From: Acidithiobacillus acidisediminis
GTDB lineage: Bacteria > Pseudomonadota > Gammaproteobacteria > Acidithiobacillales > Acidithiobacillaceae
Direction: 5' to 3'
Assembly (NCBI RefSeq): GCF_023277115.1
Contig: NZ_JALQCS010000001.1
Coordinates: 2,102,001-2,166,000, forward strand
DNA: 64,000 nt
This document shows positions 19,337 through 62,396 of the stretch, one piece after another (the stretch's first letter is position 1; every line of letters starts with the position of its first letter). The position numbers were made by a program, and so were the translations under genes. The notes beneath the pieces are model-generated. The model searched no databases. It was not told where the DNA came from and saw only the letters and a list, made by a program, of their open reading frames with translations.

Positions 19337-19369
19337 CATGGGTCAGACTTTGGGTTGAGGCAGCGGGCA

Positions 19370-36334: not shown

Positions 36335-36365
36335 CAGTCGTGTGCATTTTTGGGTTGAGTTGGCA

Positions 36366-38837
36366 ATGCAGAAAATCCGACTGGGTCACGTTATCGACCG
36401 GCTGCGCGAGATGCCGGACGGCTCCGTGCAGTGCGTGGTGACGAGCCCGCCGTACTTTGGGTTGAGGGATTATGGTTTGGAACCCGTAATCTGGGAGCCC
36501 GTCCAGTATTCCCCCATGCCTGGGATGCCAGTAATGGCCGTTCCTGGGCACGCCAACCCCCAAGCGTATGCGACCTGCGAACACGATTGGGGGGAATGGT
36601 CCGAGTCGCACGATGTACGGGAGAAGCCGATCAGTGGCAAGACCCGTACCACGGATCGCAGCTACGGCGATGCCTCTCGCCGTTTCGATGGAAACCACCA
36701 GAAACACTCCCATGGGCGGTTCTGCCGCATCTGTGGCGCGTGGCGTGGCTGTTTGGGTCTGGAGCCATCGCCGGAACTCTATATCGGGCATCTGGTGCAA
36801 GTCTTTCGGGAACTGCGCCGCGTGCTGCGGGAGGACGGCACGCTCTGGCTGAACCTGGGAGACAGTTATGCCTCCGGGAATATGGCTACCCGAGACACCG
36901 ACAAGAAATTGTCCGCCAGGGGTATGGATCTCCGCCCCTCTGATCCCCCCGGCATCAAGCCAAAAGATCTCATGGGTATTCCTTGGCGGGCAGCCTTTGC
37001 GTTGCAGGCGGATGGGTGGTTTTTGCGAAGTGACGTTGTATGGCATAAATGTCTTTCTGGTGGCGTGACAGTTTATGCCAAAGACAACGAAAGAGTATTT
37101 TCAACAACAATAAAAGATCTAGTCCGCCACGATCTCGGTAATGTTAGTTTGTGGGATGGGGGAAAATGGAACCCAATCATTTCTGTAACGGAGACTGCTA
37201 CCAACCCGGAAAGAAAAAACAGGAAGCACATGGAATATCTGGAAATCGTATTACGATCTGGTGAGAGGATTGGATGTACCGAAAATCATAGATGGCCGAC
37301 GCATCGCGGAGTGCTAGAAACAAAAGAATTACAGGTTGGTGATATTCTGGAATCGTGCGAGCTTCCTGATTCATCATACGACGTTCCAGGATTTTTGATT
37401 GACGACGCATTCTGGCTTGCTGGTCTTTTTCTTGCTGAGGGAAGCTATAGTGCGCAAACCTTACAAATTTCATTAAACGCAGACGAATCCTGCTGGTTTG
37501 AAAGAATATCCAATGTTGCAAGACATTACGGGAGCTCTTGCAATAAATACCGGTATGGGAACGGTCTACATATTAGTATAAATGGAGGAATAACAAAAAA
37601 CGTATTGGAGTCAATCGTGGTGTATCAAGGCTCCTATGGATCGCATTTGCATCACAATGTATGGATGTTCCCCAATCGCTTACTACGGTTGATTGCCAGC
37701 GGTTATCTTGATGGTGATGGTGGTTATGATGAACAGAATAATCGTTATCGTCTTGGTTTTGCTAGAAATTATTCATTAGAAAGGGATTTACGAACTCTTG
37801 CCGCAAGGCTTGGCGCAGTTCTTACATTGAAGCCCACGTTAAGCATATCCACAAATAATGGCAAATCTTTCCCATGTTTCAGAGGTGAATGGCGATGGAC
37901 GAAGCCGTCTGGCATGAGTTACAAGCCAAGAACAGAGGTTGTCGCTATTGCCAGATCCAGAGCAAGGAAGTTTTACGATATAGTCCTCAAAAACGATCCG
38001 CATCTTTTTTCGTTATCTTCTGGTGTGCTTACCCATAATAGCAACCCTATGCCAGAAAGCGTCACGGATCGCCCTACAAGATCGCACGAGATGCTGTTCC
38101 TGCTGACGAAAAACCAACGGTATTTCTATGACCATGTAGCGATTCGAGAGCCGCATAAGTCGGATTCCATTGCCAGAATACACCGTGGCCGTGCTGAAAA
38201 TCACAAGTGGAAGAACGGCCCCGGAGATCAGAGTATCGCCAACAATCTGTCTAAAGCATTACATCCAGATGGTCGCAACAAACGCGACGTCTGGCCGATC
38301 TCCACCAAGCCCTACAAGGGCGCTCATTTCGCCGTCATGCCGCCAGATCTGGTGGAGCCCTGCATCCTGGCCGGCACACCGAAAGCGGGGCGTTGTCCGC
38401 ATTGTGGCGCGCCATGGCGGCGGAGGATTGAGAGAGTCGCCTGCCAGCCTGACGAGGTTCCACCATCATATTGTGGGTCCAGTTTCCACAAAGGGAAGTC
38501 CAGAGACGCACGGGTCCACATGGCCGAAGTAAGCGATAAGCCCAGAACCGCCGGAACGCGAACCATAGGTTGGGAGCCCACTTGCCAATGTCCAGAGCAC
38601 CAACCAACTCCCTCTGTTGTCCTGGACCCGTTTGGAGGGTCCGGCACGGTTGGAATGGTCGCACAGCGATTTGGCAGGGATTGGTTGCTGATAGAAGCGA
38701 ATCCAGAGTATGCGGATTTGGCAAAGGACAGACTGAGCCAGCCTTCCAAAACCGCAGGCAGGTCAACCGTCAGGTGCGCAAAAACAACAGTAACGAAACA
38801 TCAACAGGTTTTGTCTTTGGAGATCTTTTCATCGTGA
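36366..38837 (+). CDS. DNA methyltransferase (N6-adenine/N4-cytosine type) containing an intein
   Basis: 823 codons in one frame; 330 are an in-frame intein. The host enzyme shows the catalytic motif TSPPYFGLRDYG near the N-terminus, ELRRVLREDGTLWLNLGDSY, the target motif SNPMPESVTDRPTRSHEMLF right after the intein, a Cys cluster (CPHCGAPW...CQCPEH) and the AdoMet motif DPFGGSGTVGMVAQRFGRDW at the end. The order SPPY first and DPFGGSGT last fits beta-class phage and plasmid methyltransferases. No endonuclease partner adjoins it, so it may protect the plasmid from host restriction or act in regulation. ATG 36366 chosen. Confidence 0.88.
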   Translation: MQKIRLGHVIDRLREMPDGSVQCVVTSPPYFGLRDYGLEPVIWEPVQYSPMPGMPVMAVPGHANPQAYATCEHDWGEWSESHDVREKPISGKTRTTDRSYGDASRRFDGNHQKHSHGRFCRICGAWRGCLGLEPSPELYIGHLVQVFRELRRVLREDGTLWLNLGDSYASGNMATRDTDKKLSARGMDLRPSDPPGIKPKDLMGIPWRAAFALQADGWFLRSDVVWHKCLSGGVTVYAKDNERVFSTTIKDLVRHDLGNVSLWDGGKWNPIISVTETATNPERKNRKHMEYLEIVLRSGERIGCTENHRWPTHRGVLETKELQVGDILESCELPDSSYDVPGFLIDDAFWLAGLFLAEGSYSAQTLQISLNADESCWFERISNVARHYGSSCNKYRYGNGLHISINGGITKNVLESIVVYQGSYGSHLHHNVWMFPNRLLRLIASGYLDGDGGYDEQNNRYRLGFARNYSLERDLRTLAARLGAVLTLKPTLSISTNNGKSFPCFRGEWRWTKPSGMSYKPRTEVVAIARSRARKFYDIVLKNDPHLFSLSSGVLTHNSNPMPESVTDRPTRSHEMLFLLTKNQRYFYDHVAIREPHKSDSIARIHRGRAENHKWKNGPGDQSIANNLSKALHPDGRNKRDVWPISTKPYKGAHFAVMPPDLVEPCILAGTPKAGRCPHCGAPWRRRIERVACQPDEVPPSYCGSSFHKGKSRDARVHMAEVSDKPRTAGTRTIGWEPTCQCPEHQPTPSVVLDPFGGSGTVGMVAQRFGRDWLLIEANPEYADLAKDRLSQPSKTAGRSTVRCAKTTVTKHQQVLSLEIFSS
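37050..38039 (+). other. Intein with LAGLIDADG homing endonuclease, inside the methyltransferase
   Basis: 330 residues from Cys1 (CLSGGVTVYAKDNERVF) to the C-terminal HN followed by Ser+1 (VLTHN then SNPMPES). Block B-like TENHRWPTHRG contains the conserved histidine. Two dodecapeptides, FWLAGLFLAEGS and RLIASGYLDGDGG, indicate a homing endonuclease. The segment is visibly AT-richer than the flanking methyltransferase, evidence of recent arrival. Splicing would rejoin VVWHK to SNPMPES. Confidence 0.92.
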
Positions 38838-41239: not shown

Positions 41240-44155
41240 TCAAAAAAGCTCGATCTGAGGGTTCGTCTTTTGGGGTAGCTCGTTTTTACCGAAAAGCGAC
41301 GTCTGCTCAGGCTTGGCGGACAGGCCCTTGCCTGTCAGACCGGGCTCGCGTGCGAGAAGATCGCGCAGCGGCTTCATGTCAGGCAGGCCGAGCGTTGCAC
41401 TGAGTGCGGCATCGATTTCCGCGCGCACGGGATCGACGTTGAGCTTGGCCAATGCTTGCAATTCCAGGTGGCCCAGACGGTCGTAGTCCTCAGCCAGCCT
41501 GGATAGCGCATCGGCTGGCAGGTTGCGCACATCGAGGACGGGCATGGCTTCCCACTGCGGCTGTTTGATCTGCATCCAGGCACCTTGGGTAACAACCCGT
41601 CGGGAGAGCATCAACAGCAGGGATGGTGTTGAATTGAGCCACAGCAGAAGGGCTTTTCCCTGTTGCTCATCCAGGCTCGTGCTCAATGCCCACCATGTAT
41701 TACCAAGAACCGCCTGCCCGAAACCGACCGCCAGAACACGATGGGTGTTCGTCCGCACTCGTTCCACCAGCAAGATGCGTCCGGCTCGCGGCCAAAGGCG
41801 AGTCGGCCCGTAATCTGATCCGCGGGGGGAGTCAATCCATGGGGACAGCCACGAATTCGGTTTCTGCTCGATCGTTGTGACGGTTTTGGCGTCGTGGTTC
41901 CAGAAACATGGGTATGGAGACCATTCGTTTTCCGAAACCTTGAAACCCTCGTGGATTCTTTTCCGATCGGGTCCAAGCGCCCCCAAATCTTCGATTTGGC
42001 AAAGTGGAAGAGGGGTGGGATTGTTGCCCGGAACGGCGAGTGCACCATGCTTGGACAGTTGAACCGCAACGCGCAGCGTCCAGGTCTGTGCGAACTGCAC
42101 GCCAATCCATTGTTCTGCACACTGAGACGGGGGCATGGAGACGAGTTCGGCGAGTTTGCGCCCGTCGCTTCCTATGATTGAGGTCACCGATCCGGTCTCC
42201 ACTTCCGCCGCGGGCGTTGCCGTGATGCGTGAGGCCACGTCCATGGCTTCGTAAATCGTGGTTGGGTTATACCAAAGATTCACGTAAAGCGTATGCCCTG
42301 GACATTCGTCACGCTTGAGTTTGCGCGCCACGAACATGATCTCCGACAGATCGGTGTTCTCGGAAAAGTTCGGACGTTGCGCGTCATGACTCACGATCAC
42401 GATTTCGAGGTGGTATCCATCTGCGATGAGTTTGCGGCTCTCACCCCAGGCTTCGCCTGTGGCCAGCGCGGCAGGCAGGATGAAGGCCATTCGCCCGCCC
42501 ACGCGCAGATGCTTGTCGGCAATGGCCATGAAAACGCTCCCAAGACCCGCTGTGACAGATGCTTTGAGGTTTTTGGCTCGCCGTTTGAGTTCACTTTGCA
42601 GTTTGTCGCGCTCATCGTCCGGCAGGCTGCCGAAAAGCAGATTACCCCCCACGGAGCGCACGAACGGCGGGTTCATTACACACAGATCGATGGTGGGTAC
42701 TTCGGCATTCGTGTAGTGCTCGGAAGCGACGCCCGTCTGCTTGACCTCCATCTGGCTATTGTCGAGTGTGAACTGTGTCTGCACCTTGCGATGTCCGATA
42801 AAATCCAGACTCCCCAGGCGCAGGGTTCGGCCCTCTACGCCCATCGGCATAGTGAACAAGTTCATTTTGCGATACGTTACCTCTGGCGCGAGCATTCCCA
42901 GAGTCGATGCGGTGAGATGTACTGCAGAGGGAAGCACGTCGTAACCGTAGATGACGTTTTCCATCAGTGTTTCATGCAGGTGTTTGAGGTCTGTTGGCTG
43001 GATACTCCGATTGGATGCTACGCGCTCGATCACGAACTTGTCGGTGATAGCCTGGGCGGTTGCCATCAGCAGCGTTCCAGTACCGCAAGCCAAGTCCGCA
43101 GCGGCAAAATCGGCCAGCTTTTTCGGTGATCCAAAATCAATATCCCATTTCTGCGCAAAGGTCAGTTTGAGCAGCATCGTCGCCGACGACGTGGCCGTGT
43201 AGTAGGTTCCAAGGTATTTGGCGTGATGCAGCAGCCAGTGATAGATGCGCCCCATCAAGTCGTGCCGGAGGGCGGACTGGTTGGCGCAGATTGATTTGGC
43301 TTCGTCCTTGAGCCATCGAACCGCCGCAATGGCCCCTTGCGTGATCGGGACTTCTTCGAGAATAGCTTCGCCGATCTGAAAAATCGGGACGTAATTGATG
43401 CGCGTCCAGATCCAGTGCCAGTGTTTCTTGATCTCGTTGATGGGATCTGCCGCGTTGTCGTAGACCCGCAGGGAGTCGATGCGTCCATCCGCGTTCGATG
43501 CTGCTAACTGTTCCTGGAAGATCATGGCATTGGCCAGCACAAGCGCAGATACTTTGGCCGCCGTTTCGCGGCGCGCATTGCGCTCATCCGCAGTCTCTCC
43601 GCGCTTCGGTGGCATGCCCAGAGCGTCGGAGAGCTTGTCACATACACCTCCCGCACCGGCCCACAGATCGGCTATGGATTGGATGCGTTGTGAGAGCCTC
43701 TCCGCAGAAGATGCAACGATGTCGTCTTTCGTCATCGCCTCGTGCGCGCGACGCAGAGAGGCAAGCACTTCATCGGGGCTGCCTTCGGCCCAGTCTGTCT
43801 CTCCGGTCTCGGAAATGACCAAGTGCTTCAACCTGCTTTTCGACAGCGAGGCCTCAAGCTCCGTGACGCGAACCGTCCGAAGTTGCTTTGGGTAGATCAG
43901 CGCTACGGCGATGTGACATACCCCTCTGCGAACGCGCTGTCTGGCGTCGTTGAGCACGACATTTTCTGCGTCGGGGACGTCTGCATACTTACCTTCGATT
44001 ACAACGCGCACGCCTCCGAGAAGAAACATTACATCTGGTCGATGTTGACCGCCCCGATGAATCGTTTCGGCATCAGCGTTTACGCCATGCTTACTCAAAA
44101 GGATTGCAAGCTGTGTATTGATGGTTTCTTCGCGGTGTCGGATTGCCTGAACCAT
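41240..44155 (-). CDS. Nuclease-N6-adenine methylase fusion (type IIG-like restriction-modification protein)
   Basis: 971 residues. The N-terminal part has RPDVMFLLGGVRVVIEGKYA, which fits the PD-(D/E)xK nuclease pattern (D-x(10)-ExK). The centre has AdoMet motif ADLACGTGTLLMATAQAI and the catalytic NPPF in LCVMNPPFVRSVGG, of the N6-adenine methylase class. The C-terminal 350 residues would hold target recognition. Nuclease, methylase and specificity in one chain is the type IIG plan; the family may also be a BREX- or DISARM-like methylase. ATG 44155 chosen; the longer frame continues into low-complexity sequence. Alone on its strand. Confidence 0.75.
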   Translation of the reverse strand: MVQAIRHREETINTQLAILLSKHGVNADAETIHRGGQHRPDVMFLLGGVRVVIEGKYADVPDAENVVLNDARQRVRRGVCHIAVALIYPKQLRTVRVTELEASLSKSRLKHLVISETGETDWAEGSPDEVLASLRRAHEAMTKDDIVASSAERLSQRIQSIADLWAGAGGVCDKLSDALGMPPKRGETADERNARRETAAKVSALVLANAMIFQEQLAASNADGRIDSLRVYDNAADPINEIKKHWHWIWTRINYVPIFQIGEAILEEVPITQGAIAAVRWLKDEAKSICANQSALRHDLMGRIYHWLLHHAKYLGTYYTATSSATMLLKLTFAQKWDIDFGSPKKLADFAAADLACGTGTLLMATAQAITDKFVIERVASNRSIQPTDLKHLHETLMENVIYGYDVLPSAVHLTASTLGMLAPEVTYRKMNLFTMPMGVEGRTLRLGSLDFIGHRKVQTQFTLDNSQMEVKQTGVASEHYTNAEVPTIDLCVMNPPFVRSVGGNLLFGSLPDDERDKLQSELKRRAKNLKASVTAGLGSVFMAIADKHLRVGGRMAFILPAALATGEAWGESRKLIADGYHLEIVIVSHDAQRPNFSENTDLSEIMFVARKLKRDECPGHTLYVNLWYNPTTIYEAMDVASRITATPAAEVETGSVTSIIGSDGRKLAELVSMPPSQCAEQWIGVQFAQTWTLRVAVQLSKHGALAVPGNNPTPLPLCQIEDLGALGPDRKRIHEGFKVSENEWSPYPCFWNHDAKTVTTIEQKPNSWLSPWIDSPRGSDYGPTRLWPRAGRILLVERVRTNTHRVLAVGFGQAVLGNTWWALSTSLDEQQGKALLLWLNSTPSLLLMLSRRVVTQGAWMQIKQPQWEAMPVLDVRNLPADALSRLAEDYDRLGHLELQALAKLNVDPVRAEIDAALSATLGLPDMKPLRDLLAREPGLTGKGLSAKPEQTSLFGKNELPQKTNPQIELF

Positions 44156-44200
44156 TGATCGTTTTATTCCAATATTTCCAAAAAAGAAGAGAAAAAACAC

Positions 44201-44241
44201 GCCAAATCTAAAAGCTATACCATAAGTGAAACAGCTATACC
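44201..44241 (+). promoter_or_regulatory. Plasmid-type promoters (tandem) upstream of topoisomerase
   Basis: GCCAAA (44201), nine bases, TATACC (44216-44221); a second TATACC (44236-44241) in CAGCTATACCCC. The two hexamers are 20 bases apart. Gene starts at 44270. Confidence 0.55.
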
Positions 44242-44269
44242 CCTGCAACTTCGCCAGCAGGGGTTTTTC

Positions 44270-46573
44270 ATGTCCACCGTCATCATTGCCGAGAAGCCCA
44301 GCATGGCGCGCGCCATCCGCGAAGGGCTTGGGAGCGCAGCCAGCCGGTACGAAATCACCAATGCCTTTGGGCACATTCTGGAACAGGCGGGGCCAGACGA
44401 GTATTTGCCCGGAGACGTGCCAAAAACCGCCAAGGGCAAAAAAATGTGGCGGATGCAGGATCTGCCCATTATCCCTGACCGTTGGGTGAAGTACCCAAAG
44501 AAAGACGCCAAAGAACAGCTGGGAAAGATTGGTGCGTTACTCAAAAGTGCAGACACGGTTATCAACGCCGGCGACCCGGACCGTGAAGGGCAATTGCTCA
44601 TCGATGAGATCCTGGAGCACTTCCACTATCGCGGCAAGGTCCAGCGCGTGTGGCTGAAAGCCCTGGATGCCGAGAACGTGCGCAAGGCCTTTGCCGGTCT
44701 GGAGTCCAACGAGAAGTATCGGCCACTGAAAAACGCTGCCGAGGCCCGCAGCCAGTCGGACTGGGTGGTGGGCATGAACCTGACGCGGGCGGTTACCGTG
44801 AAGTCCGGTTCCCTGTTCACCATTGGCCGTGTGCAGACCCCTACCCTGGCGCTGGTCGTGCGCCGCGACCTCGTGATCGAGAACTTCGTGCCCCGGGACT
44901 ACTTCGAGGTCTTTGCCCAATGCCAGCATCCCAAGGGCGCGTTTTTGGCGAAGTGGGAGCCCAAGAGCACCGACGGTCAGGGCTTTGATGAGGAAGGTCG
45001 CCTCATCGACAAAACCCTCGCGGAGCAGATGGCGGCCAAGGCCAAGGGTGCTGGGTCCGTCAAGAAATTCGAGGCCAAGGAACAAAAGCAGTCGGCTCCC
45101 CTCCCCTTCAGCCTTTCTGCACTGCAGAAGGTGGCTTCCAGTCGGTTTGGCATGAGCGCCCAACAAGTGCTGGATACCTGCCAGTCTTTGTATGAGAAGA
45201 AAATCACGACCTATCCGCGTACCGACTGCCGCTATCTGCCCGAAGAGCAACTGGCGGATGCGCCAAAAATCCTGCGCTCCCTGCCGATCCCGGAGGGCGT
45301 TGCATCCCTGGTCAACCCCCGGCAAAAGCACGTGGCCTGGAACAACAGCAAGATCACTGCGCACAACGCCATCATCCCGACGGGCCAGGCAGCCTCCGGG
45401 CTGAGTGCTGCGGAAGAAAAGCTCTTCGAACTCATCTGGAAGTCCTATGTTGCATTGTTTCTGCCGGAATACCGATACCGTTCTCTGTCGGCCACGGTCG
45501 ATCTGGGAGGCGAATCCTGGAAAGCGACGGGACGGCAGGATATGGATCTTGGCTGGAAGAAACTCTATGCCGGGGCTTCTCTGGAAGACGAGGACGATGG
45601 CGAGGATGGCAAGGCGCCACTGCCTGCGATGCAGACGGGCGATGCCATCCAGGGCAAGGGCGGCCAGGTGCAGGCCAAGCAGACCAAGCCACCGGCACGG
45701 TTCACGGACGGCAGCCTCATTGAGGCCATGTCCAACATTCACAAATTCGTCGAGGATCCACAAGCCAAGGCAAAACTCAAAGAGACCTCCGGCCTGGGGA
45801 CGGAAGCGACCAGAGCGGCCACCATCGAGAAATTGCTGGACACGGACTATCTCAAGAAACAGGGCAAACAACTGATCTCCACGCACAAGGCGCGGACGTT
45901 GATTGCCTATCTGGAAAAGCACGGTCTCGCGTCATTCGCTGATCCGGTGACCACGGCCCGATGGGAAGATGCACTGACCAATGTGGCCGAGGGGAAAACC
46001 GCGGCGGACCGCTTCACGAACGCGGTCGCCGACAACGTCAAAAAGGCCATAGATATCCTGAAGAACACCACGGCGGTATTGGAAGGTGGCAAGTCGGTCC
46101 CTACCCTGCCCTGCCCCATTTGCGGTAGTGACGCGACGATCCGGCGGTTCCAGTCGAAGAAAAACAAGTCGGTGTTCTTTTGGGCCTGTTCCAACAAGGA
46201 GGCACATCCTCTCCTGAAAGACGATAACGGCAAGCCTGGGGAACCCTTTGCGCCTCGCGGTTCGGAGCCTGCGGCAGATTCCGGTCCGGAAGGACCAGAG
46301 TGCCCACACTGCAAGGGAACCCCTACCCGCGGGCGGCAAACCAGCAGTGGCAAGGACTATTTCCGTTGTCCCTCCTGCGGTGCCGCATTCTGGCCGGACC
46401 GTGAGGATCCCCAGAAGCTGGGGGGTGAATGGCCGAAGCAGGAGAAGTCTTCTGGCCCCAGATCCTGGGGAGGATCATCCAGAAAGGGAGCGGCCAAGCC
46501 GGGTGGCAAGCCCAAGGCTTCGGCGGGGGGTAAAAAGCCGGCTTCCAGCGGGACCCGCGGGAGGAAATCCTGA
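44270..46573 (+). CDS. topB: DNA topoisomerase III (TraE-like)
   Basis: 767 residues of a type IA topoisomerase. Toprim motifs MSTVIIAEKPSMARAIREGL and INAGDPDREGQLLIDEILEH; active-site tyrosine in KKITTYPRTDCRYLPEEQ; C-terminal zinc-ribbon pairs (CPICGSD...CSNKEAHP and CPHCKGTPTRG...CPSCGAAF) and a basic, Gly/Ser-rich tail. Plasmid versions such as RP4 TraE act in decatenation and transfer. Overlaps the HIRAN gene by one base (TGATG). Confidence 0.95.
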   Translation: MSTVIIAEKPSMARAIREGLGSAASRYEITNAFGHILEQAGPDEYLPGDVPKTAKGKKMWRMQDLPIIPDRWVKYPKKDAKEQLGKIGALLKSADTVINAGDPDREGQLLIDEILEHFHYRGKVQRVWLKALDAENVRKAFAGLESNEKYRPLKNAAEARSQSDWVVGMNLTRAVTVKSGSLFTIGRVQTPTLALVVRRDLVIENFVPRDYFEVFAQCQHPKGAFLAKWEPKSTDGQGFDEEGRLIDKTLAEQMAAKAKGAGSVKKFEAKEQKQSAPLPFSLSALQKVASSRFGMSAQQVLDTCQSLYEKKITTYPRTDCRYLPEEQLADAPKILRSLPIPEGVASLVNPRQKHVAWNNSKITAHNAIIPTGQAASGLSAAEEKLFELIWKSYVALFLPEYRYRSLSATVDLGGESWKATGRQDMDLGWKKLYAGASLEDEDDGEDGKAPLPAMQTGDAIQGKGGQVQAKQTKPPARFTDGSLIEAMSNIHKFVEDPQAKAKLKETSGLGTEATRAATIEKLLDTDYLKKQGKQLISTHKARTLIAYLEKHGLASFADPVTTARWEDALTNVAEGKTAADRFTNAVADNVKKAIDILKNTTAVLEGGKSVPTLPCPICGSDATIRRFQSKKNKSVFFWACSNKEAHPLLKDDNGKPGEPFAPRGSEPAADSGPEGPECPHCKGTPTRGRQTSSGKDYFRCPSCGAAFWPDREDPQKLGGEWPKQEKSSGPRSWGGSSRKGAAKPGGKPKASAGGKKPASSGTRGRKS

Positions 46574-49892: not shown

Positions 49893-50682
49893 TCCCTCCG
49901 GCTCACGGGGGAGTACGAATGAGCGCCTGCTCCCGATGCCCTTGCGCCAGTTGCGTGGGGAAGATGCGGCTGGCGTATCGGTATCAACCAGGGTGCAGTC
50001 GAACAGCCGGCGGGGGCGGATCATTGGTCCCGATGGCGAACCCATCCCGCTCAAAATTTCCCCGGAAGAAACGGTTTGGCAACCGCGCTGGAAATGGGTG
50101 GGCAAGCTTCTGGGCCGTTCCGTGCCGGCGGGCCAGGACCCTTCTGTGCAAGCCCTCTTGCGAAGGGTCTACTGGACCGTGGAAGTCCAGGAGACCACAG
50201 AAGCATTGCAAGGCAATGCGGCTGCGCCAACCACGACTGCAGAGTCCCCCCAGACGAAATCCACGAGGGCCGCGCCTGCTTCAGGCGGGCCTGCTCAGGC
50301 CGCGCCTGTTCCGGCAGAACCCGCCAAGGCAGAACCCGCCAAGGCAGATTCTGCCAAGGATGCCGAGGCTTCGGAAGAAAAATCTGTCTCCAAGGGGTCC
50401 ATCAAGGAATGGGCGATGCCGTTGCTGGTGGTGTTTCTTGGAGCGATCCTCATCTTCGCCATGGGCACCCTGCTGGGGTATGCCCTGGCGACGGGGCATG
50501 CTGCCCCGAATTTCCTGGCGGCGATCGTCTATGCGCCGACAGGATCGTTGTTGCTCCTCCTGGGCGGTCTGGCCTGTCTGGTGCAGGGGCACGAAGAATC
50601 CAAAGTCCGGTATTTGTGGCTGGGTAGCGGCTGGATCCTGTTGCTGGTCTTTGCCTGGAGTCTTCTGGGGGGGTACTTTTGA
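49873..50682 (+). CDS. Membrane protein with Ala/Pro/Lys repeat linker
   Basis: 269 residues. A basic N-terminal half, then an imperfect repeat region (PAEPAKAEPAKADSAKDAEA), then two helices (MPLLVVFLGAILIFAMGTLL and GSLLLLLGGLACLV) and a third at the end (YLWLGSGWILLLVFAWSLLG). The layout is that of a TraM/TraQ-like or TrbJ-like accessory protein, not identified. The start is uncertain (ATG 49873 or ATG 49936). The stop overlaps the relaxase start. Confidence 0.55.
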   Translation: MQKPSTNPSGSRGSTNERLLPMPLRQLRGEDAAGVSVSTRVQSNSRRGRIIGPDGEPIPLKISPEETVWQPRWKWVGKLLGRSVPAGQDPSVQALLRRVYWTVEVQETTEALQGNAAAPTTTAESPQTKSTRAAPASGGPAQAAPVPAEPAKAEPAKADSAKDAEASEEKSVSKGSIKEWAMPLLVVFLGAILIFAMGTLLGYALATGHAAPNFLAAIVYAPTGSLLLLLGGLACLVQGHEESKVRYLWLGSGWILLLVFAWSLLGGYF

Positions 50683-52373
50683 GCGAAAAACGCTCTGAGA
50701 CTTCGGTTTCCGGGAAGTCTTTCGTCCGCGGCAAGACCATCGACGACGATGAACACCGTGGCCGACCCCAGGCCGCGCGTGTCATTCGCCGGATTACCGC
50801 CGAAAGGCGCGCCATGTCGGCGAAAGTCTCCGGGCGCGTGTCCAAGGGTGGTGGCGGACGCCTGTTGCGCAGGCTACCAAAAGGCCCTGCCGACCAGCAG
50901 GCCGCCCGGCGGGTCATGATCAAGCTCAGTTATGCGCCGAATCGGAAGGCTGGCCAGTGGGCGGCGCATGGCAGTTACCTGGAACGCGAAAATGCGCAGG
51001 TCGAGGGAGAAAAGGGCAAGGGATTCGACGCTTCCGAAGATGAGGTGTCCATCCGTTCGCGCCTGCATGCCTGGCAGATGGCTGGGGACCCCAGACTGTT
51101 CAAGGTGGTCCTTTCGCCAGAAGACGGTCAGCGCCTGAATCTTCCGGAATTCACCCGCGAGACCATGACGAGGCTCGCGCCACACCTTTCCGAAAACCCC
51201 GAATCCATCGAATGGGTAGCCATAGACCACCACAATACCGGCCATCCGCACGTGCATTTGTTGATCCGCGGCAAGGATGGACTACGGATCCAGAGAGACC
51301 TGATCAAGACCGGGATGCGCAATCTGGCCTCGGAAGTAGCGACGGAGCGCCTGGGCTACAAGTCGCCTGCTGAGCAACTGCAGTCCCGGGAAAGACAGGT
51401 CGAAGCCAGAAGCCTGACCAGCATGGATCGGGATATCGAGCGTCTTTCCAAGCCCTTGCCGGACGGCAGGGCGGTGTGGATGGAGCAAGTCAAGAAACCC
51501 AATGATCGCGGGTATGCCGAACAGAAGCAGCTTCTACGCAGGCTGGAAGCGCTCGAAAAACTTGGGCTTGCGGAAAAGGTCGGTTCTTCTACCTGGACGC
51601 TGGATGCCGGATGGACGAAAGCCTTGCGCGATCTGGAAGTGGTGCGCACGCGCACCAAGATGATCGCTGAGTCCCGTGCCCTCATGACTGAGCCACGCTG
51701 CCCGCCGCAGGTGACCAAGCTCAAGCCTGGTGAGCGGCTGGTAGGACGGGTGTTGGGAACGGGGCTCGATGAACAGTTTGACCGGTCCTACGTCATTATC
51801 GAGGGTACGGACTATCGTGCGCACATTGTCTATCAGAATGCGGCCATCGAGCAGGCCCGTGCCGCGCAGGATCTGCAGTTGCGGCATTTGGTGGCGATCG
51901 AGGGGAAATCCTTTGTAAACCGTGAGGGCAAGCCCATCCAGACCCTTTCGGTAGAGGATTATGGCCTGGTGATACCGGACAAGGCAGAGCCTTTTCGTGC
52001 CCCCGCAGAAGCCCTGGATGCAGCGCTCGACGCGGGCCAGCAGCCGGCGGGTGCGGAACAGGCAGCAACGGGATTCCAGCGGTATTGGCACGAACAGCTA
52101 CTGGAACGTTCCAGGGAGCGACAGAGGCAAGCGGAAAAGGCCCGTCTGGAGCAAGTGCGGCTGGAGCAGGCACGCCTGGAGCAGGATCGCCTGGAACAAG
52201 AGCGCATCGAACGGGATCGACAGGAAAAGGAGGCGCAGGCTCGCCTGGAGCAGGCTCGCATGAATCAGGTTCCCGCATCGCCAAAGCCTTCTGCGCCAGA
52301 GACCCAAAAACCTGGTGTGGGCAGAAACGGTGGCCGTGGCAGCGGTGGCCGCGGGGACGATGAACTCGAATGA
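50679..52373 (+). CDS. traI: Conjugative relaxase with DUF3363-type C-terminus
   Basis: 564 residues from TTG 50679 (GGGGGGGTAC upstream; overlaps previous stop). The nickase domain has the metal-binding three-histidine motif IDHHNTGHPHVHLLIRG; downstream, the region FDRSYVIIEGTDYRAHIVYQ fits DUF3363 relaxases of RP4/Ti-like systems. The C-terminal coiled coil is made of repeats ARLEQVRLEQARLEQDRLEQ, then a Gly/Arg-rich tail. The catalytic Tyr is not obvious to me; Y in VMIKLSYAPNRKAGQWAAHG is one candidate. Initiates plasmid transfer by nicking oriT, which I did not locate. Confidence 0.88.
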   Translation: MSEKRSETSVSGKSFVRGKTIDDDEHRGRPQAARVIRRITAERRAMSAKVSGRVSKGGGGRLLRRLPKGPADQQAARRVMIKLSYAPNRKAGQWAAHGSYLERENAQVEGEKGKGFDASEDEVSIRSRLHAWQMAGDPRLFKVVLSPEDGQRLNLPEFTRETMTRLAPHLSENPESIEWVAIDHHNTGHPHVHLLIRGKDGLRIQRDLIKTGMRNLASEVATERLGYKSPAEQLQSRERQVEARSLTSMDRDIERLSKPLPDGRAVWMEQVKKPNDRGYAEQKQLLRRLEALEKLGLAEKVGSSTWTLDAGWTKALRDLEVVRTRTKMIAESRALMTEPRCPPQVTKLKPGERLVGRVLGTGLDEQFDRSYVIIEGTDYRAHIVYQNAAIEQARAAQDLQLRHLVAIEGKSFVNREGKPIQTLSVEDYGLVIPDKAEPFRAPAEALDAALDAGQQPAGAEQAATGFQRYWHEQLLERSRERQRQAEKARLEQVRLEQARLEQDRLEQERIERDRQEKEAQARLEQARMNQVPASPKPSAPETQKPGVGRNGGRGSGGRGDDELE

Positions 52374-55846: not shown

Positions 55847-56732
55847 GTCTGCCTTGCGCGTGCAGGGATGGAAGGAAGGAGACACGCAGATTCATGACGT
55901 ACGTGACCGTCGGCCCTGTGCGTGCAGGGATGAAAGGGATGAAGAAGTAGCGACAATTTTTGGCGTTGCCGTTTGCCCTGCGCATGCAGGGATGAAAGAG
56001 GCGGGGATTGGCCCAAAGGCGGGGTGACACCTTACGCCCTGTGTATGCAGGGATGGAAGGATCTCTCGCGTTTTCCCGACGCCCGTGGTCGGGTCTGCCC
56101 TGTGTGTGCAGGGATGGAAGGTTGCAGTTTGTCAGGGGCGGACTTTTGGAGTTGCCTGCCCTGTGCGTGCAGGGATGGAAGGTCAATCTTGACATGTTCT
56201 AAGCTGCCGGATTCCGTCTGCCCTGTGCGTGCAGGGATGAAAGGCAAGGTGAAATGGGCATGAGTGGCGCTCTCATCGTCTGCCCTGTGTACGCAGGGAT
56301 GAAAGGTTTGTGCGGATAAAAGCCCAGCCAGAAGGGTGGTCTGCCCTACACACGTAGGGATGGAAGATTGGGTGCTAGGCACGCCGGCCGGCTGCTTCTG
56401 TCTGCCCTGTATGTGCAGGGATGGAAGGATATGGGGGAATGATTGTGCAATTAATGGTGGCTGCCCTACGCGCGTAGGGATGGAGGTGAGGCTATCGGAG
56501 AATCCGTGGCAAAGGGCGTAATGTGCCCTGTGTATGCAGGGATGAAAGTGAGCCGCCATCGCTTCGCCTGCCTCGCCCTTAGTCTGCCCTGTGTACGCAG
56601 GGATGGAAGAATCAGGCCGGTTTCACCCTCATCGAGTTGATGAGTGCGCCCTGTGTACGCAGGGATGGAAGGTGCCAGTTTCCGTTGTGCTTCTTGCCCG
56701 TTTCGTGCGCCCTGTGTAAGCAGGGATGGGAG
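55847..56732 (+). CRISPR. CRISPR array, 15 repeats and 14 spacers, no cas genes in view
   Basis: Fifteen repeats of about 28 bases start at 55847, 55909, 55971, 56032, 56093, 56154, 56216, 56278, 56339, 56400, 56459, 56521, 56582, 56644 and 56705; spacers are 31 to 34 bases. Consensus: GTCTGCCCTG, a variable six-base loop region, then CAGGGATGGAAG. The stem CCCTG/CAGGG is kept, and two repeats have CCCTAC...GTAGGG, where both arms changed together. The 3' handle GATGGAAG and the period of 61-62 resemble type I-E/IV-A arrays. Plus orientation is inferred from the handle. Repeats differ more than in most arrays. No cas/csf genes lie within the window. Confidence 0.93.
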
Positions 56733-56821
56733 AAACAGGCATCGGCTTGACAAAAATGCCGGTTCGTATAAACATACATCCTGAGTTTACTGCCTAACGG
56801 CTTTGAATCTATCGAGGTTTT

Positions 56822-57040: not shown

Positions 57041-57355
57041 ATGGCGTCGGTCAAGATTGCGGAGTTGCTGGAGAAGTACAAGGCGCTGGAAGAGCGCAGC
57101 AATGCCTTGCGGGTGCAGGTGGCGCGGGATGAAGCCCGGCGCGAGAGCGACCAGCGACAGTACGACGAGATCCTGCAGCAGTTGCAGGAGCGGTTTCAGA
57201 CCCGCGATCTGGGCGCCATCCGCGAGAAAATCGAGCAGGAAAAGCAGGCCATCCATGCGGAACTCCTGGCTTTCGAGGAGTCCCTCTCCCGCGCCGAAGT
57301 CCAGCGGGAAACCTGCCAGAAGGCACTGGCCGAGATCGACGCGGCGGCATCCTGA
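57041..57355 (+). CDS. Small coiled-coil protein at head of the SbcCD-like operon
   Basis: 104 residues, one continuous charged heptad helix (AELLEKYKALEERSNALRVQ, REKIEQEKQAIHAELLAFEE). It overlaps the permuted SbcC gene by one base (TGATG). In ordinary SbcC two coil arms flank the zinc hook; this protein may supply or stabilise the arm shortened in the permuted protein. The function is inferred only from position and composition. Confidence 0.65.
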   Translation: MASVKIAELLEKYKALEERSNALRVQVARDEARRESDQRQYDEILQQLQERFQTRDLGAIREKIEQEKQAIHAELLAFEESLSRAEVQRETCQKALAEIDAAAS

Positions 57356-59376
57356 TGATGCCGGTGTTCCGTCCAGACGAACGTCTGGGGAAATTGCTGG
57401 AGGACGTGCATCGCCTGCGTGGCCGGATCGATGCCGCACGGGAAGAAAAGTCGCGCATCCTGCACGCCGTGGGTGTAGCCCGTGCACGGGTCGCCAAAAA
57501 AGACGAGGTGGAAGCGGTCCTGGAAGCCCTGGAGCGCCGTTTCCACGAAAAGAGCATGGGGGTTCTGGAATCCCTGCTGACGGCATTTCTGTCCGATGTG
57601 CTGCCGCGGGAAGGCGGGAAACAGCGCGTCGAGATGCAGATGAGCACCCAGCGCGGACTTCCAGCCCTGCAGGTGCAGATCAACAATGGCGGCGAGTCCG
57701 AAGATGCCTTGCGCGGACGCGGCGGTTCGGTGGCGAACGTCCTGTCCGCGGGGCTGCGGTTCATCGCCGTGGCGCGTTCTTCCGGCATGGCCGGCACCAG
57801 GATGGGCATGCGTCCCTTTCTGGTGCTGGATGAAGCCGATTGCTGGCTGTCGCCGGAACGGGTGGCCGACTTTGCCCGGGTGATCGACCAGCTTTCCCGA
57901 GACTTGCACTTGCAGGTGCTGGTCATCAGTCACCACGACTCCCGCCTCTTTCACGGATTCCCCGTGCACCTGGAGCGCGTGGAATCCACCGATCCAGAAT
58001 CTGGGGACCCCTACCCTTCCGTCCGGGTCCGTTATGTGCCGGATCGCATGGAAAGGCATGCTTCCGGATGGGAGCATGATGGAAACGGCAAGGAATACCC
58101 GCCACTGAAAAGCATTACCCTGAAAAACTTCCTGTCCCACAAGGACACGGTCATTCCGCTTTCGCCGGGAGTGACGGTACTGACCGGCGACAACGATGTC
58201 GGGAAAAGCGCTGTGGCAGAGGCCTTTCGTGCCGTGGCCTACGACGTTTCCTCGGACGCCTTGATCCGCCACGGCGCCGATCGCGCGGAAGTCACCATCG
58301 ACCTGCTGGACGGCACGGCGGTGCAATGGGTCCGGGTGCGCAAAGGCAACCCCAAAGTATTGTACCGATGGCTGCGCAATGGTGAGGTGGAACAGGAAAC
58401 CCCAGCCGGACGGGACATGCCGGAATGGGTTTCCCTGCGGCTCGGGATCGGTCTGCGTGACGATCTCGACGTACAGATCGGTGACCAGAAGTCGCCGGTG
58501 TTCCTGCTGAACGAAACGCCGGCAAAACGTGCGGCGATCCTCGACATTGGGCAGGAATCCCAATACCTGCGGACCTTGCGGGATCGCTGGAAAAAGCAGC
58601 TGGACGAGGACCGCAAAACCATCCGCGATGGCGAGAACCGCCTGCGGATCGTGGAAAGGATCCTGGAGCAGGAGGGAGCCATGAATTCCCTGCTGACCAC
58701 GACCGAAAGTCTGCAGTCGGCAGCGACACCTCTTGCGCGTCGCCTGGCCGACGTGGAATCGGATGCAGGCCGCCTGGACCGTGCGCAAGCCACATCTCAG
58801 CGCATGCAGGTCTGGAGAGCGCATCCGGTCGGGGTTCCGGAATGCCCGGACCGCACGGCAGCACTCGGGCGCATCGCGGATGCCGACCGGTTGTTGCCGA
58901 AAATCGCCACACTGCAAGCCCGCCTGCATGCCCAGAGGAGCCTGCCGGACAGTGCGGCGATACCGGATTTGCGGCCCATGCAAGTCCGTATCGAGGCCCT
59001 TGCCGAATCCGTACGTATCGGGCGGAATCTGCACGGCTTCCGCTTGCGGGTACAAGCCTGGGCGGCTGGCGTGCCGGTCGACACCCTCCAGGAAATCGAA
59101 GAGCGCCAGCGGCGGATCGTGGCCAGCTTCGAGGGGGTCAACGCCGCCATCGACCGATGGGGGGAGATGGCCAAGGCGGCACAACGGTTGAAAGCCGACA
59201 GGGAGGCCATAGAGGCCACCAGCAAGGAACTGTCTCTGGCTGTTCAGGAGCAGGAAGCGCTCTTGTCCGGCATGGAGATCTGCCCATTATGTGGGTCCCC
59301 CATGGATGCCACTGCTGCGCATGGCATGCACCAAAACGGGCACCACCAGGATTCCGGAGCGCAGCATGTCGAATAA
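57355..59376 (+). CDS. Circularly permuted SbcC/Rad50-like ATPase
   Basis: 673 residues with the halves of an SMC/Rad50 ATPase in reverse order. Residues 20-85 are coiled coil; 112-136 a signature-like GGESEDALRGRGGSVANVLS; 155-160 Walker B FLVLDE; 191-195 the H-motif ISHHD. Then, at 251, LKSITLKNFLSHKDTVIPLS begins a standard N-terminal lobe with Walker A TGDNDVGKS (277-285), a coiled coil, and the zinc-hook CPLC at 643-646 near the C-terminus. Normal SbcC has Walker A first and Walker B last with the hook in the middle. All catalytic motifs are present. It is followed by, and overlaps, an SbcD/Mre11 gene. Confidence 0.85.
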   Translation: MMPVFRPDERLGKLLEDVHRLRGRIDAAREEKSRILHAVGVARARVAKKDEVEAVLEALERRFHEKSMGVLESLLTAFLSDVLPREGGKQRVEMQMSTQRGLPALQVQINNGGESEDALRGRGGSVANVLSAGLRFIAVARSSGMAGTRMGMRPFLVLDEADCWLSPERVADFARVIDQLSRDLHLQVLVISHHDSRLFHGFPVHLERVESTDPESGDPYPSVRVRYVPDRMERHASGWEHDGNGKEYPPLKSITLKNFLSHKDTVIPLSPGVTVLTGDNDVGKSAVAEAFRAVAYDVSSDALIRHGADRAEVTIDLLDGTAVQWVRVRKGNPKVLYRWLRNGEVEQETPAGRDMPEWVSLRLGIGLRDDLDVQIGDQKSPVFLLNETPAKRAAILDIGQESQYLRTLRDRWKKQLDEDRKTIRDGENRLRIVERILEQEGAMNSLLTTTESLQSAATPLARRLADVESDAGRLDRAQATSQRMQVWRAHPVGVPECPDRTAALGRIADADRLLPKIATLQARLHAQRSLPDSAAIPDLRPMQVRIEALAESVRIGRNLHGFRLRVQAWAAGVPVDTLQEIEERQRRIVASFEGVNAAIDRWGEMAKAAQRLKADREAIEATSKELSLAVQEQEALLSGMEICPLCGSPMDATAAHGMHQNGHHQDSGAQHVE

Positions 59377-60403
59377 GGGATTGTTGTTCATTGGGGACCC
59401 GCACTTGTCTTCCCGCAGGCCTGGGCGGCGAACCGATGCGGATTTTGCCGGCACGGTGCTGGGCAAACTGGACCAAGCATTGATCCTCGCGCGGGAACAG
59501 GAATGGGTGCCCGTGGTCCTGGGCGACCTGTTCGACCGCGGGGACGATAACAGCCTGTCCATGCTCACCCGTCTCTTGCGCCTGTTGCGCACGCACAGGG
59601 AACAGGGGGGAGAGATTCCTTTGTGCCTGGTCGGTAACCACGATTTGCGGGATACCGATCTCGCGGACGACACGGCCATGGGCCTGTTGCGGGAAACGTC
59701 GTGGATCCGCATCCTGGAGACGAAGCACGATCCAGAGCCCGTCACGATCGAGGGAGTCGTTCACCTGTTGCCGGTTTCGTATGGCAAGAGCCGCGATGCG
59801 CTTTCCAGCATCGCAAAATCCCTGAAGGCAAAGGACCGCCTGCCGGTCATTGCCCTGACCCACGAGGACTTCGATTTCCAGGGCGCCTATCCTGGGGCGT
59901 CGATCATGGAAGAAATCCCTGGCGTGGACATGGTGGTCAACGGGCACATGCACAAGCCAGCGCCCTGGGTGAAGCGTGGCAAAACGCTCTGGTGCAATCC
60001 CGGCAACATCACCCGGATGAGCATCGATTGCGAAGGCTATCCGCCTTCGGTGTGGTCGTGGACCCCGGATATGGGAACCACCAAGGGACTGAACCAGCAC
60101 GTGCTGGTCCACCAGTCCGTGGTGTTCGATCGCACGGGCTTGCGCGTGGCGGCCAATGAGGGCGCCTTGCGCGAGGCCATTGGTGAAGCTCTCGATGCTG
60201 GCGCGGAGCAGGCCTTGCAGCAATCGGAGCGGGAAGCGGGCAGCGATTTTGCGGCACTGCTGAAAAACCAGCAGTTCGGCACGGTGACCGAGGATGCCGG
60301 CATCCTGCGCGAGGAACTGGATGCCGTTCTGCGCGAACAGCGAACGGATGACGTCACGGCGGGGATACTGCTTTCCCTGTTACAGGGAATCGCGGGTGGA
60401 TGA
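59366..60403 (+). CDS. SbcD/Mre11-like nuclease
   Basis: 345 residues with the metallophosphoesterase motifs: GDPHLSSRRP, VVLGDLFDRGDD, LVGNHDLRDT, ALTHEDFDF and VVNGHMHKPAPW. This is the Mre11/SbcD pattern with both metal sites complete. The C-terminal part is helical (coupling to the ATPase). ATG 59366 overlaps the upstream gene by 11 bases. Together with the permuted SbcC it should form a DNA-end-processing complex serving replication, repair or exclusion of foreign DNA. Confidence 0.9.
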   Translation: MSNKGLLFIGDPHLSSRRPGRRTDADFAGTVLGKLDQALILAREQEWVPVVLGDLFDRGDDNSLSMLTRLLRLLRTHREQGGEIPLCLVGNHDLRDTDLADDTAMGLLRETSWIRILETKHDPEPVTIEGVVHLLPVSYGKSRDALSSIAKSLKAKDRLPVIALTHEDFDFQGAYPGASIMEEIPGVDMVVNGHMHKPAPWVKRGKTLWCNPGNITRMSIDCEGYPPSVWSWTPDMGTTKGLNQHVLVHQSVVFDRTGLRVAANEGALREAIGEALDAGAEQALQQSEREAGSDFAALLKNQQFGTVTEDAGILREELDAVLREQRTDDVTAGILLSLLQGIAGG

Positions 60404-60463: not shown

Positions 60464-61348
60464 TTGGGTATCCGATTTGTGCCGTCTGGCAAAAAAATCC
60501 TCGCTGGTGCGACGATTGCCGCGTCCCTGTCCGCAATCGGAATCGTTGCGTTTGCCGATGGTTCGGCGGGTTCACAGGCACGCCCAACGTCTGTCGATCA
60601 TGTCGTTTATTCCCGCATGGTCCAGAAGCTTTCCCATGGCTCCCTGCGCCTGGTCGATACCTTCAATGGGCCGGATGGACTGACCGGACTGGTGGCCGAG
60701 ACTGCTTCGGGCAAGGGGCAAAAGACTCTGGCCTGGGGACTGGATGGGAAACTGCTCATTGCCGGTCCCGTGCTGGACGCCCAAGGGCAGAACCTGAGCC
60801 TGCAGGCGGCAAAGACACACGGGCTGTTGCCGAAGCCCATCGCTGGCGGAAAGCTTTCCCGGGCCATGCTGGACGCCCCGGGCTTTACCGTTGGGAGCAA
60901 GGGTCCACTCACTGCCGTCTTTCTGGATCCCAACTGCATCTTCTGCCACAAGTTCTGGAATGAGGCCTATCCGCTGGCAAAAGCCGGGAGAATCCGCGTC
61001 AAGGTGGTCCCGGTGGGCTTTCTGAAGCCGACCAGTCTGTCCAAGGCGGCAACGATCCTGATGCAAAAGGATCCTGCCACCGCCTGGGCACAAAACGAGG
61101 CGAAGTTCGATGTGGCTACCGAAGAAGGTGGCACGGTGCCGGCAAAAACGCTGGACCCGAAGATCGTCAGGGAAATCCAGGCCAATACGCAATTGCTTGC
61201 CCAGACCGGTGAGGTGGCGACGCCAACCATCGCGGCCTGTGCCAATCCCGGGGAAAAGACTCCACAAATCTTCCACGGCCTGGCGCCGGACATGCTCGGC
61301 AGCCTGGCCAAAGGTGGATCGCTCTTGCCTTCCGGTAACTGTTCCTGA
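60464..61348 (+). CDS. DsbC/DsbG-like periplasmic disulfide protein
   Basis: 294 residues from TTG 60464. Signal/anchor segment (ILAGATIAASLSAIGIVAFA), an N-terminal dimerisation-like region, then a thioredoxin fold with LDPNCIFCHKFWNEAYPL (CxxC = CIFC) and the cis-proline GEVATPTIAA. Matches the DsbC/DsbG plan. On conjugative elements (TrbB/DsbC) such proteins fold the pilus and channel proteins; targets here could be the Cys-rich lipoprotein at 53221. Overlaps the next gene start by one base. Confidence 0.82.
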   Translation: MGIRFVPSGKKILAGATIAASLSAIGIVAFADGSAGSQARPTSVDHVVYSRMVQKLSHGSLRLVDTFNGPDGLTGLVAETASGKGQKTLAWGLDGKLLIAGPVLDAQGQNLSLQAAKTHGLLPKPIAGGKLSRAMLDAPGFTVGSKGPLTAVFLDPNCIFCHKFWNEAYPLAKAGRIRVKVVPVGFLKPTSLSKAATILMQKDPATAWAQNEAKFDVATEEGGTVPAKTLDPKIVREIQANTQLLAQTGEVATPTIAACANPGEKTPQIFHGLAPDMLGSLAKGGSLLPSGNCS

Positions 61349-61773
61349 TGGGGAGAATCACTCTCCAGCATCTTCCCCCTGCCCTGCGTGCCCAGGTTCG
61401 CGCGGAACACGGTTTGGTAAGGGAACGGAAGACGGCAGGAGAAAAAAGTGTTTCCCCTTTTGCGGAACGGTTGGGACGCGCTCTCGAAGACCGCTTCCCT
61501 GGACTCGTCCAAAGGGAGTACCGGCCACTGGAAGACCGCAGGTATCGCATCGACTTCGCTTTTCCGCAGTCGATGTTGGCCATCGAGTTTGACGGCTACC
61601 GCCACCACGGCTTTTCCCGTGAGGGCTTCAGGCAGGGGCTTGCGCGGCAGAACGCCCTGGTACTGGCTGGCTGGAGGGTGCTGCGGTACACCCTTACCGA
61701 TGTCCGCGACCGCATGGACGGGATCCTTGCAGATATCGAAAAGGTGCTGCGCACGGCAGGGCTGGTTCCTTGA
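61348..61773 (+). CDS. DUF559-like (Vsr-related) endonuclease domain protein
   Basis: 141 residues: RYRIDFAFPQSMLAIEFDGY then AGWRVLRYTLTDVRDRMDGI. This is the D-x-E-x-D/H pattern of DUF559, a PD-(D/E)xK nuclease relative of Vsr (RIDFAFP, AIEFDGYRHH, RVLRYT). A DNA nuclease of unknown role. Start ATG 61348 overlaps the upstream stop (TGATG); stop overlaps the next start. Confidence 0.8.
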   Translation: MGRITLQHLPPALRAQVRAEHGLVRERKTAGEKSVSPFAERLGRALEDRFPGLVQREYRPLEDRRYRIDFAFPQSMLAIEFDGYRHHGFSREGFRQGLARQNALVLAGWRVLRYTLTDVRDRMDGILADIEKVLRTAGLVP

Positions 61774-62396
61774 TTCCTTTCGATACGCTCGTTGCACAAT
61801 GTGCCCCGCAAGTGGCGCCCAGAACCATGGCCGCCATCGTGCGGGTCGAGTCCGGCGGCAATCCGCTGGCGATGTGGAACAACAGCACCGGCCAGCGGAT
61901 CTTGCCCACCACTCTGCAACAGGCGCAAGCCTGTCTGGCGCAGGCGATGGCGGCAGGGCAAAAGGTGGATGTGGGCATCGCCCAGGTGGATACGGAGAAC
62001 TTCGCGGCCTATGGTTTGAATCTCGACAATGCCTTTGACGCCTGCACCAATCTGCGTGTGGGCGCGGAAATCCTGGCGTCCAACTACCGTCATGCGGTGG
62101 CACGTTTCGGCCCCGGTCAGGTAGCCCTCTACCATGCCTTTGAGGGCTACAACTCGGGGCATCTCTGGGGAGACAGCCACTATGCCAACCTGGTATTGCG
62201 ATCCGCCGGCATCCCCGTCCATGTGCAGTCCTCTGGACGCATGGTATTCCGCAAACTCGCCTACGTTCTCACTTGGGCGGCCCCCATAAGCTACGCAAAA
62301 CCTTCCGGATCAGTAGCCAAAACCGTTGCTGCTGCCCCGGACACATCCAGCGCCATGGTGCTCCGCCAGGGCGCGGCGTATGTGATGCGGTGGTAA
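61770..62396 (+). CDS. VirB1/TrbN-like lytic transglycosylase
   Basis: 208 residues from TTG 61770 (overlaps upstream stop, TTGA). The lysozyme-like fold begins CAPQVAPRTMAAIVRVESGG with catalytic Glu in RVESGGNPL, then KVDVGIAQVDTENFAAYGLN and VALYHAFEGYNSGHLWGDSH. This matches VirB1/TrbN-type enzymes that open peptidoglycan for the type IV secretion channel. No signal peptide is evident. Confidence 0.8.
   Translation: MIPFDTLVAQCAPQVAPRTMAAIVRVESGGNPLAMWNNSTGQRILPTTLQQAQACLAQAMAAGQKVDVGIAQVDTENFAAYGLNLDNAFDACTNLRVGAEILASNYRHAVARFGPGQVALYHAFEGYNSGHLWGDSHYANLVLRSAGIPVHVQSSGRMVFRKLAYVLTWAAPISYAKPSGSVAKTVAAAPDTSSAMVLRQGAAYVMRW

Follow-up and report, generated by a model that had tools for sequence, protein, structure and literature searches.

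The chain order of SMC/Rad50 proteins is treated as fixed, because the two ATPase lobes must meet after a long coil, and a locus of Acidithiobacillus acidisediminis raises the question of whether an SbcC/Rad50-type ATPase can have this order rotated. The locus occupies 57041-60403 of the analysed stretch of 64,000 nucleotides (the window), which lies on the main contig of a genome of 2.8 Mb assembled into 4 contigs. It consists of three overlapping + strand genes in the order S-P-D. S (57041..57355, +) encodes a small coiled-coil protein of 104 residues, or 109 if translated from ATG 57026. P (57355..59376, +) encodes a 673-residue ATPase and overlaps S by 1 base. D (59366..60403, +) overlaps P by 11 bases and encodes a 345-residue phosphoesterase, for which ATG 59366 is a more likely start than GTG 59291, the start of the longest ORF. 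D matched Metallophos (7.6e-12) and the SbcD-like phrog_100 (3.8e-9) and retains the SbcD/Mre11 active-site motifs GDPH, GDLFD, GNHD and GHMH intact. These ORF coordinates and D motifs bear out the initial annotation, which had described a separate 104-residue coiled-coil gene upstream of the ATPase and an intact SbcD gene downstream, all overlapping; an operon with SbcD/Mre11 is a property of SbcC/Rad50. The DNA of the window is island-like, with methylases and a CRISPR-like array.

The motifs of P were located at residues 155-160 (FLVLDE), from 191 (ISHHD), 277-285 (TGDNDVGKS) and 643-646 (CPLC), where the initial annotation had placed the Walker B/H-motif, Walker A and the hook. The chain runs C-lobe, N-lobe, coil, terminal CxxC; in the canonical control, T4 gp46, Walker A is at 36, CPTC at 288 and LILDE at 501. 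Residues 7-82 of P (57373..57600, +) form two helices leading into the C-lobe (7-47 and 49-82 in the AlphaFold model) and would be the lower return coil. The C-lobe, residues 90-227 (57622..58035, +), contains the GGSxxN signature region (123-128), Walker B, the D-loop (D162) and the switch histidine (H193). It is followed by a linker, residues 228-250 (58036..58104, +), the new joint from the end of the C-lobe to the start of the N-lobe, which is mostly of low confidence (pLDDT <50 at 232-234 and 236-245) and variable in length among aligned homologues. The N-lobe, residues 251-395 (58105..58539, +), has Walker A (GDNDVGKS, 278-285) and an invariant Gln378 at a Q-loop-like position. The outgoing coil, residues 400-638 (58552..59268, +), was modelled as six helices with loops between them, and the hook, residues 643-673 (59281..59373, +), comprises the terminal CPLC and a His-rich tail.

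Profile comparisons assign both lobes to the SMC/Rad50 superfamily. The first 234 residues of P matched the C-terminal half of Pfam SMC_N (profile 149-200 of 220, E 8.4e-5) and PHROG 15167 'ATPase' (5e-7), and a family profile of this part matched Rad50/SMC C-lobes in the PDB (4e-4 to 1e-3), in agreement with the ABC/SMC C-lobe that had been proposed for the N-terminal ~230 residues. Residues 253-450 matched AAA_23 (1.5e-12) and residues 251-296 the Rad50 N-lobe. This second part also matched phage SbcC profiles, and P matched NCBIfam Rad50 at 6.5e-12, yet far below cut-off. G124, N128, D159, E160, D162, H193, G278, K284, Q378, C643 and C646 are invariant in an alignment of 13 sequences. P therefore has the Walker A and Q-loop of an SbcC/Rad50 N-lobe and the signature, Walker B, D-loop and switch His of its C-lobe, the signature being a GGSxxN variant. 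In the AlphaFold model both lobes mostly have pLDDT 80-95 and are separated by a disordered linker (~228-245); nearly all of the best PDB structural matches were Rad50 and SMC heads. The model has a mean pLDDT of 77 and a pTM of 0.57, so the relative placement of the lobes is not claimed. Canonical SbcC/Rad50 runs Walker A-coil-hook-coil-Walker B with the CxxC at a coil apex between two arms, whereas P runs Walker B-Walker A-coil-CxxC with the conserved CxxC at its end; because order and hook position both differ, P is not classed as canonical SbcC/Rad50. It is a permuted derivative and probably works in a similar way, and the circular permutation proposed at the outset is supported, with both lobes SMC/Rad50-like and homologues in the same order.

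The permuted order is common to 68 sequences, plasmid-borne and chromosomal, from alpha-, beta- and gammaproteobacteria and Acidithiobacillus, and in all full-length homologue ORFs LDExDC is followed by GxxxxGKS and then by CxxC. By tblastn, 21 plasmid records contained homologues that align colinearly across the fusion as a single piece (23-35% identity), on large plasmids of Variovorax, Bosea, Rhizobium, Acidiphilium, Methylorubrum, Pseudomonas, Vibrio, Alteromonas and Aeromonas. A genome scan gave 58 further loci, including more than 35 in Microvirga, several in Methylobacterium, and others in Roseococcus, Salipiger, Arenibaculum, Novimethylophilus and Acidithiobacillus. One copy lies on the chromosome of Microvirga sp. 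VF16, and the nearest homologue of P is in Acidithiobacillus sulfurivorans, a genome of the same family. The search for homologues with the permuted domain order thus recovered it from ~50 independent genomes and 13 plasmid loci. S is directly 5' of P in every module locus and D is 3' of P in every locus where the contig continues, with gaps of mostly -1 or -4 (S-P) and mostly -4 (P-D). Seven loci compared with the window shared no genes with it beyond S-P-D. In a sample of 399 Pseudomonadota genomes the module was present in one genome besides the window's own; it is sporadic overall and widespread in Microvirga.

The SbcC model had no full-length match in the 12 carrier genomes tested, the window's included. 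A long SbcC match was found in at most 3 of 29 genomes of the window's family (G021, G448 and, in part, G446), and a permuted C-lobe profile did not detect the module in the two long-SbcC genomes of the family that were checked. Replacement of canonical SbcC by the module in its carriers is a possibility, and is held at that strength because SbcC is rare in the window's family anyway.

With the permuted protein or its alignment as query, phage tblastn and two IMG/VR scans gave no permuted copy in viruses. Scans with the C-lobes of two split relatives, of a MAG locus against IMG/VR and of a Microcystis phage against viral sequences, also gave no match. The MAG locus (L072, bacterial) carries N-D-S-C as four genes, with an N-lobe-coil-CPTC protein of 371 residues, an intact SbcD and a C-lobe protein of 230 residues, and Microcystis phage Mvi-JY20 has the same order with all genes overlapping. 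The order is N-S-C in 27 of 27 Firmicute (pro)phage loci, on viral contigs fetched with the C-lobe of Bacillus phage vB_BboS-125; this phage, too, has N-hook, S and C as three genes. These parts correspond to phrog_16465 (N-hook), phrog_18563 (S) and phrog_15167 (C-lobe). Two other phages depart from this: in phage Tunturi_5 the N-hook gene is followed by S, and in an uncultured jumbo phage S and C are separated by a clamp-like gene. In hhalign comparisons the phage N-hook aligned with the permuted N part at E 6e-33 and phage C with the permuted C-lobe at E 1.9e-16; phage S aligned with module S at E 1.3e-4 (prob 54, turn motif aligned), a weak match of a kind prone to coiled-coil bias. All three phage parts are thus homologous to the module, S weakly so, and the arrangement differs, being three separate genes with N upstream of S-C in the phages and S-(C+N)-D in the module.

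The initial annotation had suggested that the two halves of a split phage-type SbcC became fused in reverse order, and both the split relatives and the profile similarities support this. The likely source is a phage SbcC cut into N-lobe/coil/hook, S and C-lobe genes, and S-(C+N)-D is likely to be an N-D-S-C operon rotated, with C fused to N. Tandem duplication followed by fusion and trimming is the most likely route: tandem N-D-S-C copies would read ...S-C-N-D... across their junction, and fusion of C to N at the junction with loss of the outer parts would leave S-(C+N)-D. Because the split genes keep the canonical SbcC order, a change from split to permuted is the favoured direction; the tree is midpoint-rooted and does not prove that direction.

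S was predicted by AlphaFold as two helices, 2-52 and 57-103 (pLDDT 96), with a conserved turn of FGTDD type between them. The S profile matched S of the window at E 7e-30, the window row itself being in the training set. Direct sequence matching of S to canonical arms gave no match, and a similarity to the post-hook part of phrog_77 (PHROGs, E 0.44) was dropped when it was not reproduced with the S family. The hook and Walker B of T4 gp46 lie 213 residues apart. Counting S together with the C-part as far as Walker B gives 227-261 residues, and the C-part alone gives ~150. The outgoing coil of P has ~240 residues, and S with the P N-terminal helices ~180. From the position of S before the C-lobe part, and from this spacing, S is read as the missing return arm of the permuted SbcC, on a balance of probabilities. 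That the small protein supplies the arm, as had been suggested, stands as far as gene order and coil lengths go; it is less secure on the modest profile match between phage and module S and on the two-helix prediction, which is also compatible with a hairpin accessory protein.

S may instead be a separate two-helix regulator or cap acting on hook, coil or DNA, with the permuted chain having a single coil that folds on itself. Two helices of 50 residues with a conserved turn would suit such a protein. The outgoing coil of P, built from a series of shorter helices, could fold back on itself, and in most of the pairs compared S has evolved more quickly than P and D. A free-standing regulator explains less well why S directly precedes P, or why in nearly all split loci it directly precedes the stand-alone C gene (the clamp gene intervenes in one phage), or why the hook-Walker B distance approaches that of T4 gp46 once S is included. 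We consider this alternative unlikely, though not negligible.

The reading preferred here is that S, P and D form one Mre11-Rad50/SbcCD-like complex with a permuted ATPase (probability about 0.6). Both lobes of one P chain would form one ABC head, the short linker replacing coil-hook-coil, and ATP would engage two heads with Walker A of one opposite the GGSxxN signature of the other. S, as return arm, would run beside the outgoing coil, with the P N-terminal helices below it and the hook above, and the end of the P chain would bind zinc via CxxC plus His. D would sit on the coil base via its conserved C-terminal block and, when allowed by the heads, would cut DNA ends or hairpins. We know of no nuclease or ATPase activity for any member of the module.

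Heads could also be built between chains, the C-lobe of one P pairing with the N-lobe of another to give inter-chain heads or head chains, unlike Rad50. The inter-lobe linker is short and variable, and the pTM of the P model leaves packing in cis unestablished. A linker of ~23 residues should nevertheless suffice to close a head in cis, so that a swap is not required, and the N- and C-termini of the Rad50 head belong to the same globular unit, which further counts against a swap. This arrangement is improbable.

In the canonical hook one zinc is shared by two Rad50 chains. In P the CxxC is followed by a median of 23 residues to the chain end; His is present in this tail in 66 of 68 homologues (HxH or HH in 55) and makes up 13.3% of the tails against 2.1% elsewhere in the chain. 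A frequent ending of phage N-hooks is CPLCxxxxxxHxH. It is possible that the terminal CxxC and His form a self-contained C2H2 zinc site in place of the shared canonical hook.

The nuclease has been lost in one lineage. Catalytic positions are missing in all seven gammaproteobacterial plasmid D proteins compared (H14 retained in 0/7, N92 in 1/7, H93 in 1/7, H195 in 1/7 and H197 in 0/7, numbered by the window row of alignment A3), and R23, D25, A43, L109 and the C-terminal F296, L300 and L339 are retained in 7/7. These proteins form one clade (support 95/93) with dN/dS of 0.23-0.28 where estimable; S, P and D are under purifying selection wherever this could be estimated. The ATPases of this megaplasmid clade keep all motifs. 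With the D motifs lost, D still under purifying selection and the ATPase intact, the complex has probably kept an ATPase and DNA-holding role after a single loss of the nuclease, and would only bind or tether DNA. A fuller picture, put forward tentatively and at somewhat less than even odds, is a heterotrimeric SMC-like machine with a permuted head chain, a separate-subunit return arm, a self-contained C-terminal zinc site and one lineage with a non-catalytic SbcD, that is, a nuclease-free Mre11-Rad50 relative maintaining giant plasmids.

The homology, together with neighbouring helicase, RecJ, RecQ, RdgC, topoisomerase or replication genes on several plasmids, suggests that the module takes part in the end processing and recombination of large replicons. 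Alternatively, it could serve megaplasmids as a defence system against plasmids or phages. Defence systems repeatedly include SMC-like ATPases, the window is in island-like DNA of the composition described above, and local PADLOC profile matches were obtained (best mad3 at 2.3e-14 and LmuB at 4e-11). The best of these matches are confined to Walker A or Walker B segments, D has none, and the presence of the module in more than 35 Microvirga genomes with its SbcD partner kept is unlike sporadic defence genes; a defence role is doubtful. An assembly or annotation artefact fusing two genes is refuted by single uninterrupted ORFs in the ~50 genomes and 13 plasmid loci, which come from different sequencing projects.

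A conserved, permuted, multi-part version of this ATPase shows that the topology tolerates cuts at hook and arm with rejoining at the head, and the module offers natural tests of the purpose of a closed coil and hook. The split phage operon followed by the rotated fused operon is a record of the likely steps of a circular permutation, and in the nuclease-dead clade tethering is naturally separated from cutting in an Mre11-Rad50-type complex. If the proposed architecture is true, DNA would have to enter a ring or clamp whose arm is naturally open, by a mechanism different from that of Rad50 or SMC. Current annotation gives only 'AAA family ATPase', 'hypothetical protein' and 'metallophosphoesterase', and the system is therefore hidden in it.

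No permuted or three-gene SbcC/Rad50 was found in the literature, within open-access papers; two of these give canonical descriptions (PMC5105663, PMC9389158). The archaeal ASRP/ClsN resembles P as an SMC-like ATPase with a zinc hook; its Walker A is N-terminal and its Walker B C-terminal, so that the order is canonical rather than permuted, and no SbcD partner is described in the parts consulted (PMC9389158). Mre11/Rad50 fusion proteins (Mimivirus R555 and relatives) are rearranged genes spread by viruses and plasmids, and the member from Bacillus phage 0305phi8-36, A7KV18, is without one of the two ATPase segments (PMC3175470). A7KV18 was the top viral structural match in this analysis. In the fusions nuclease and ATPase are joined in one polypeptide, whereas in the module D is a separate ORF and it is the Rad50 part itself that is permuted. 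The module shares with E. coli SbcCD and T4 gp46/gp47 the N- and C-lobes of the same superfamily, a CxxC hook and an adjacent metallophosphoesterase. It differs from SbcC/Rad50 with SbcD/Mre11 in the reversed lobes, the C-terminal rather than mid-chain hook, the return coil outside the P chain, the GGSxxN signature and the His-rich hook tail. The split phage SbcC corresponds in all three parts, with an N-hook ending at CxxC, often with HxH, and S before C; there the parts are three genes in the order N-(D)-S-C, whereas the module has a single chain in which C precedes N.

Phosphoesterase active-site residues were lost in the SbcD homologues of plasmid loci L003, L005, L006, L007, L008, L010 and L013, and each of these retained homologues is adjoined by an intact permuted ATPase. 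In existing annotation the SbcD homologues lacking the active site are labelled 'hypothetical protein' or are absent. The outgoing coil of the window's permuted ATPase (residues 400-638, window 58552-59268) and those of its homologues are broken by loops rich in Leu-Pro motifs, and a single continuous coiled coil is therefore unlikely.

A short way upstream of the module formed by the small coiled-coil, ATPase and SbcD genes lies a CRISPR-like array (window 55849-56737), whose 15 repeats are degenerate and have a spacing of 59-62 nt. Genes for LPD7, type IA topoisomerase, DUF3363, thioredoxin-like and DUF559 proteins and an SLT transglycosylase were located at window 19355-21178, 44270-46570, 50679-52370 and 60464-62393, giving a mobile-element-like setting within the main contig. 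Two large DNA methylase-domain proteins are also encoded (N6_N4_Mtase, 831 aa, window 36342-38834; N6_Mtase, 1044 aa, window 41240-44374).

Across the window's family (G000, G001-G024, G445-G448), the SbcC model gave a long match in at most 3 of 29 genomes and only short local matches in most. In phage loci L103, L119-L145, L108, L106 and L104/L107, SbcC is divided among separate N-hook, C-lobe and small coiled-coil (phrog_18563) genes, the last of which carries no functional annotation.
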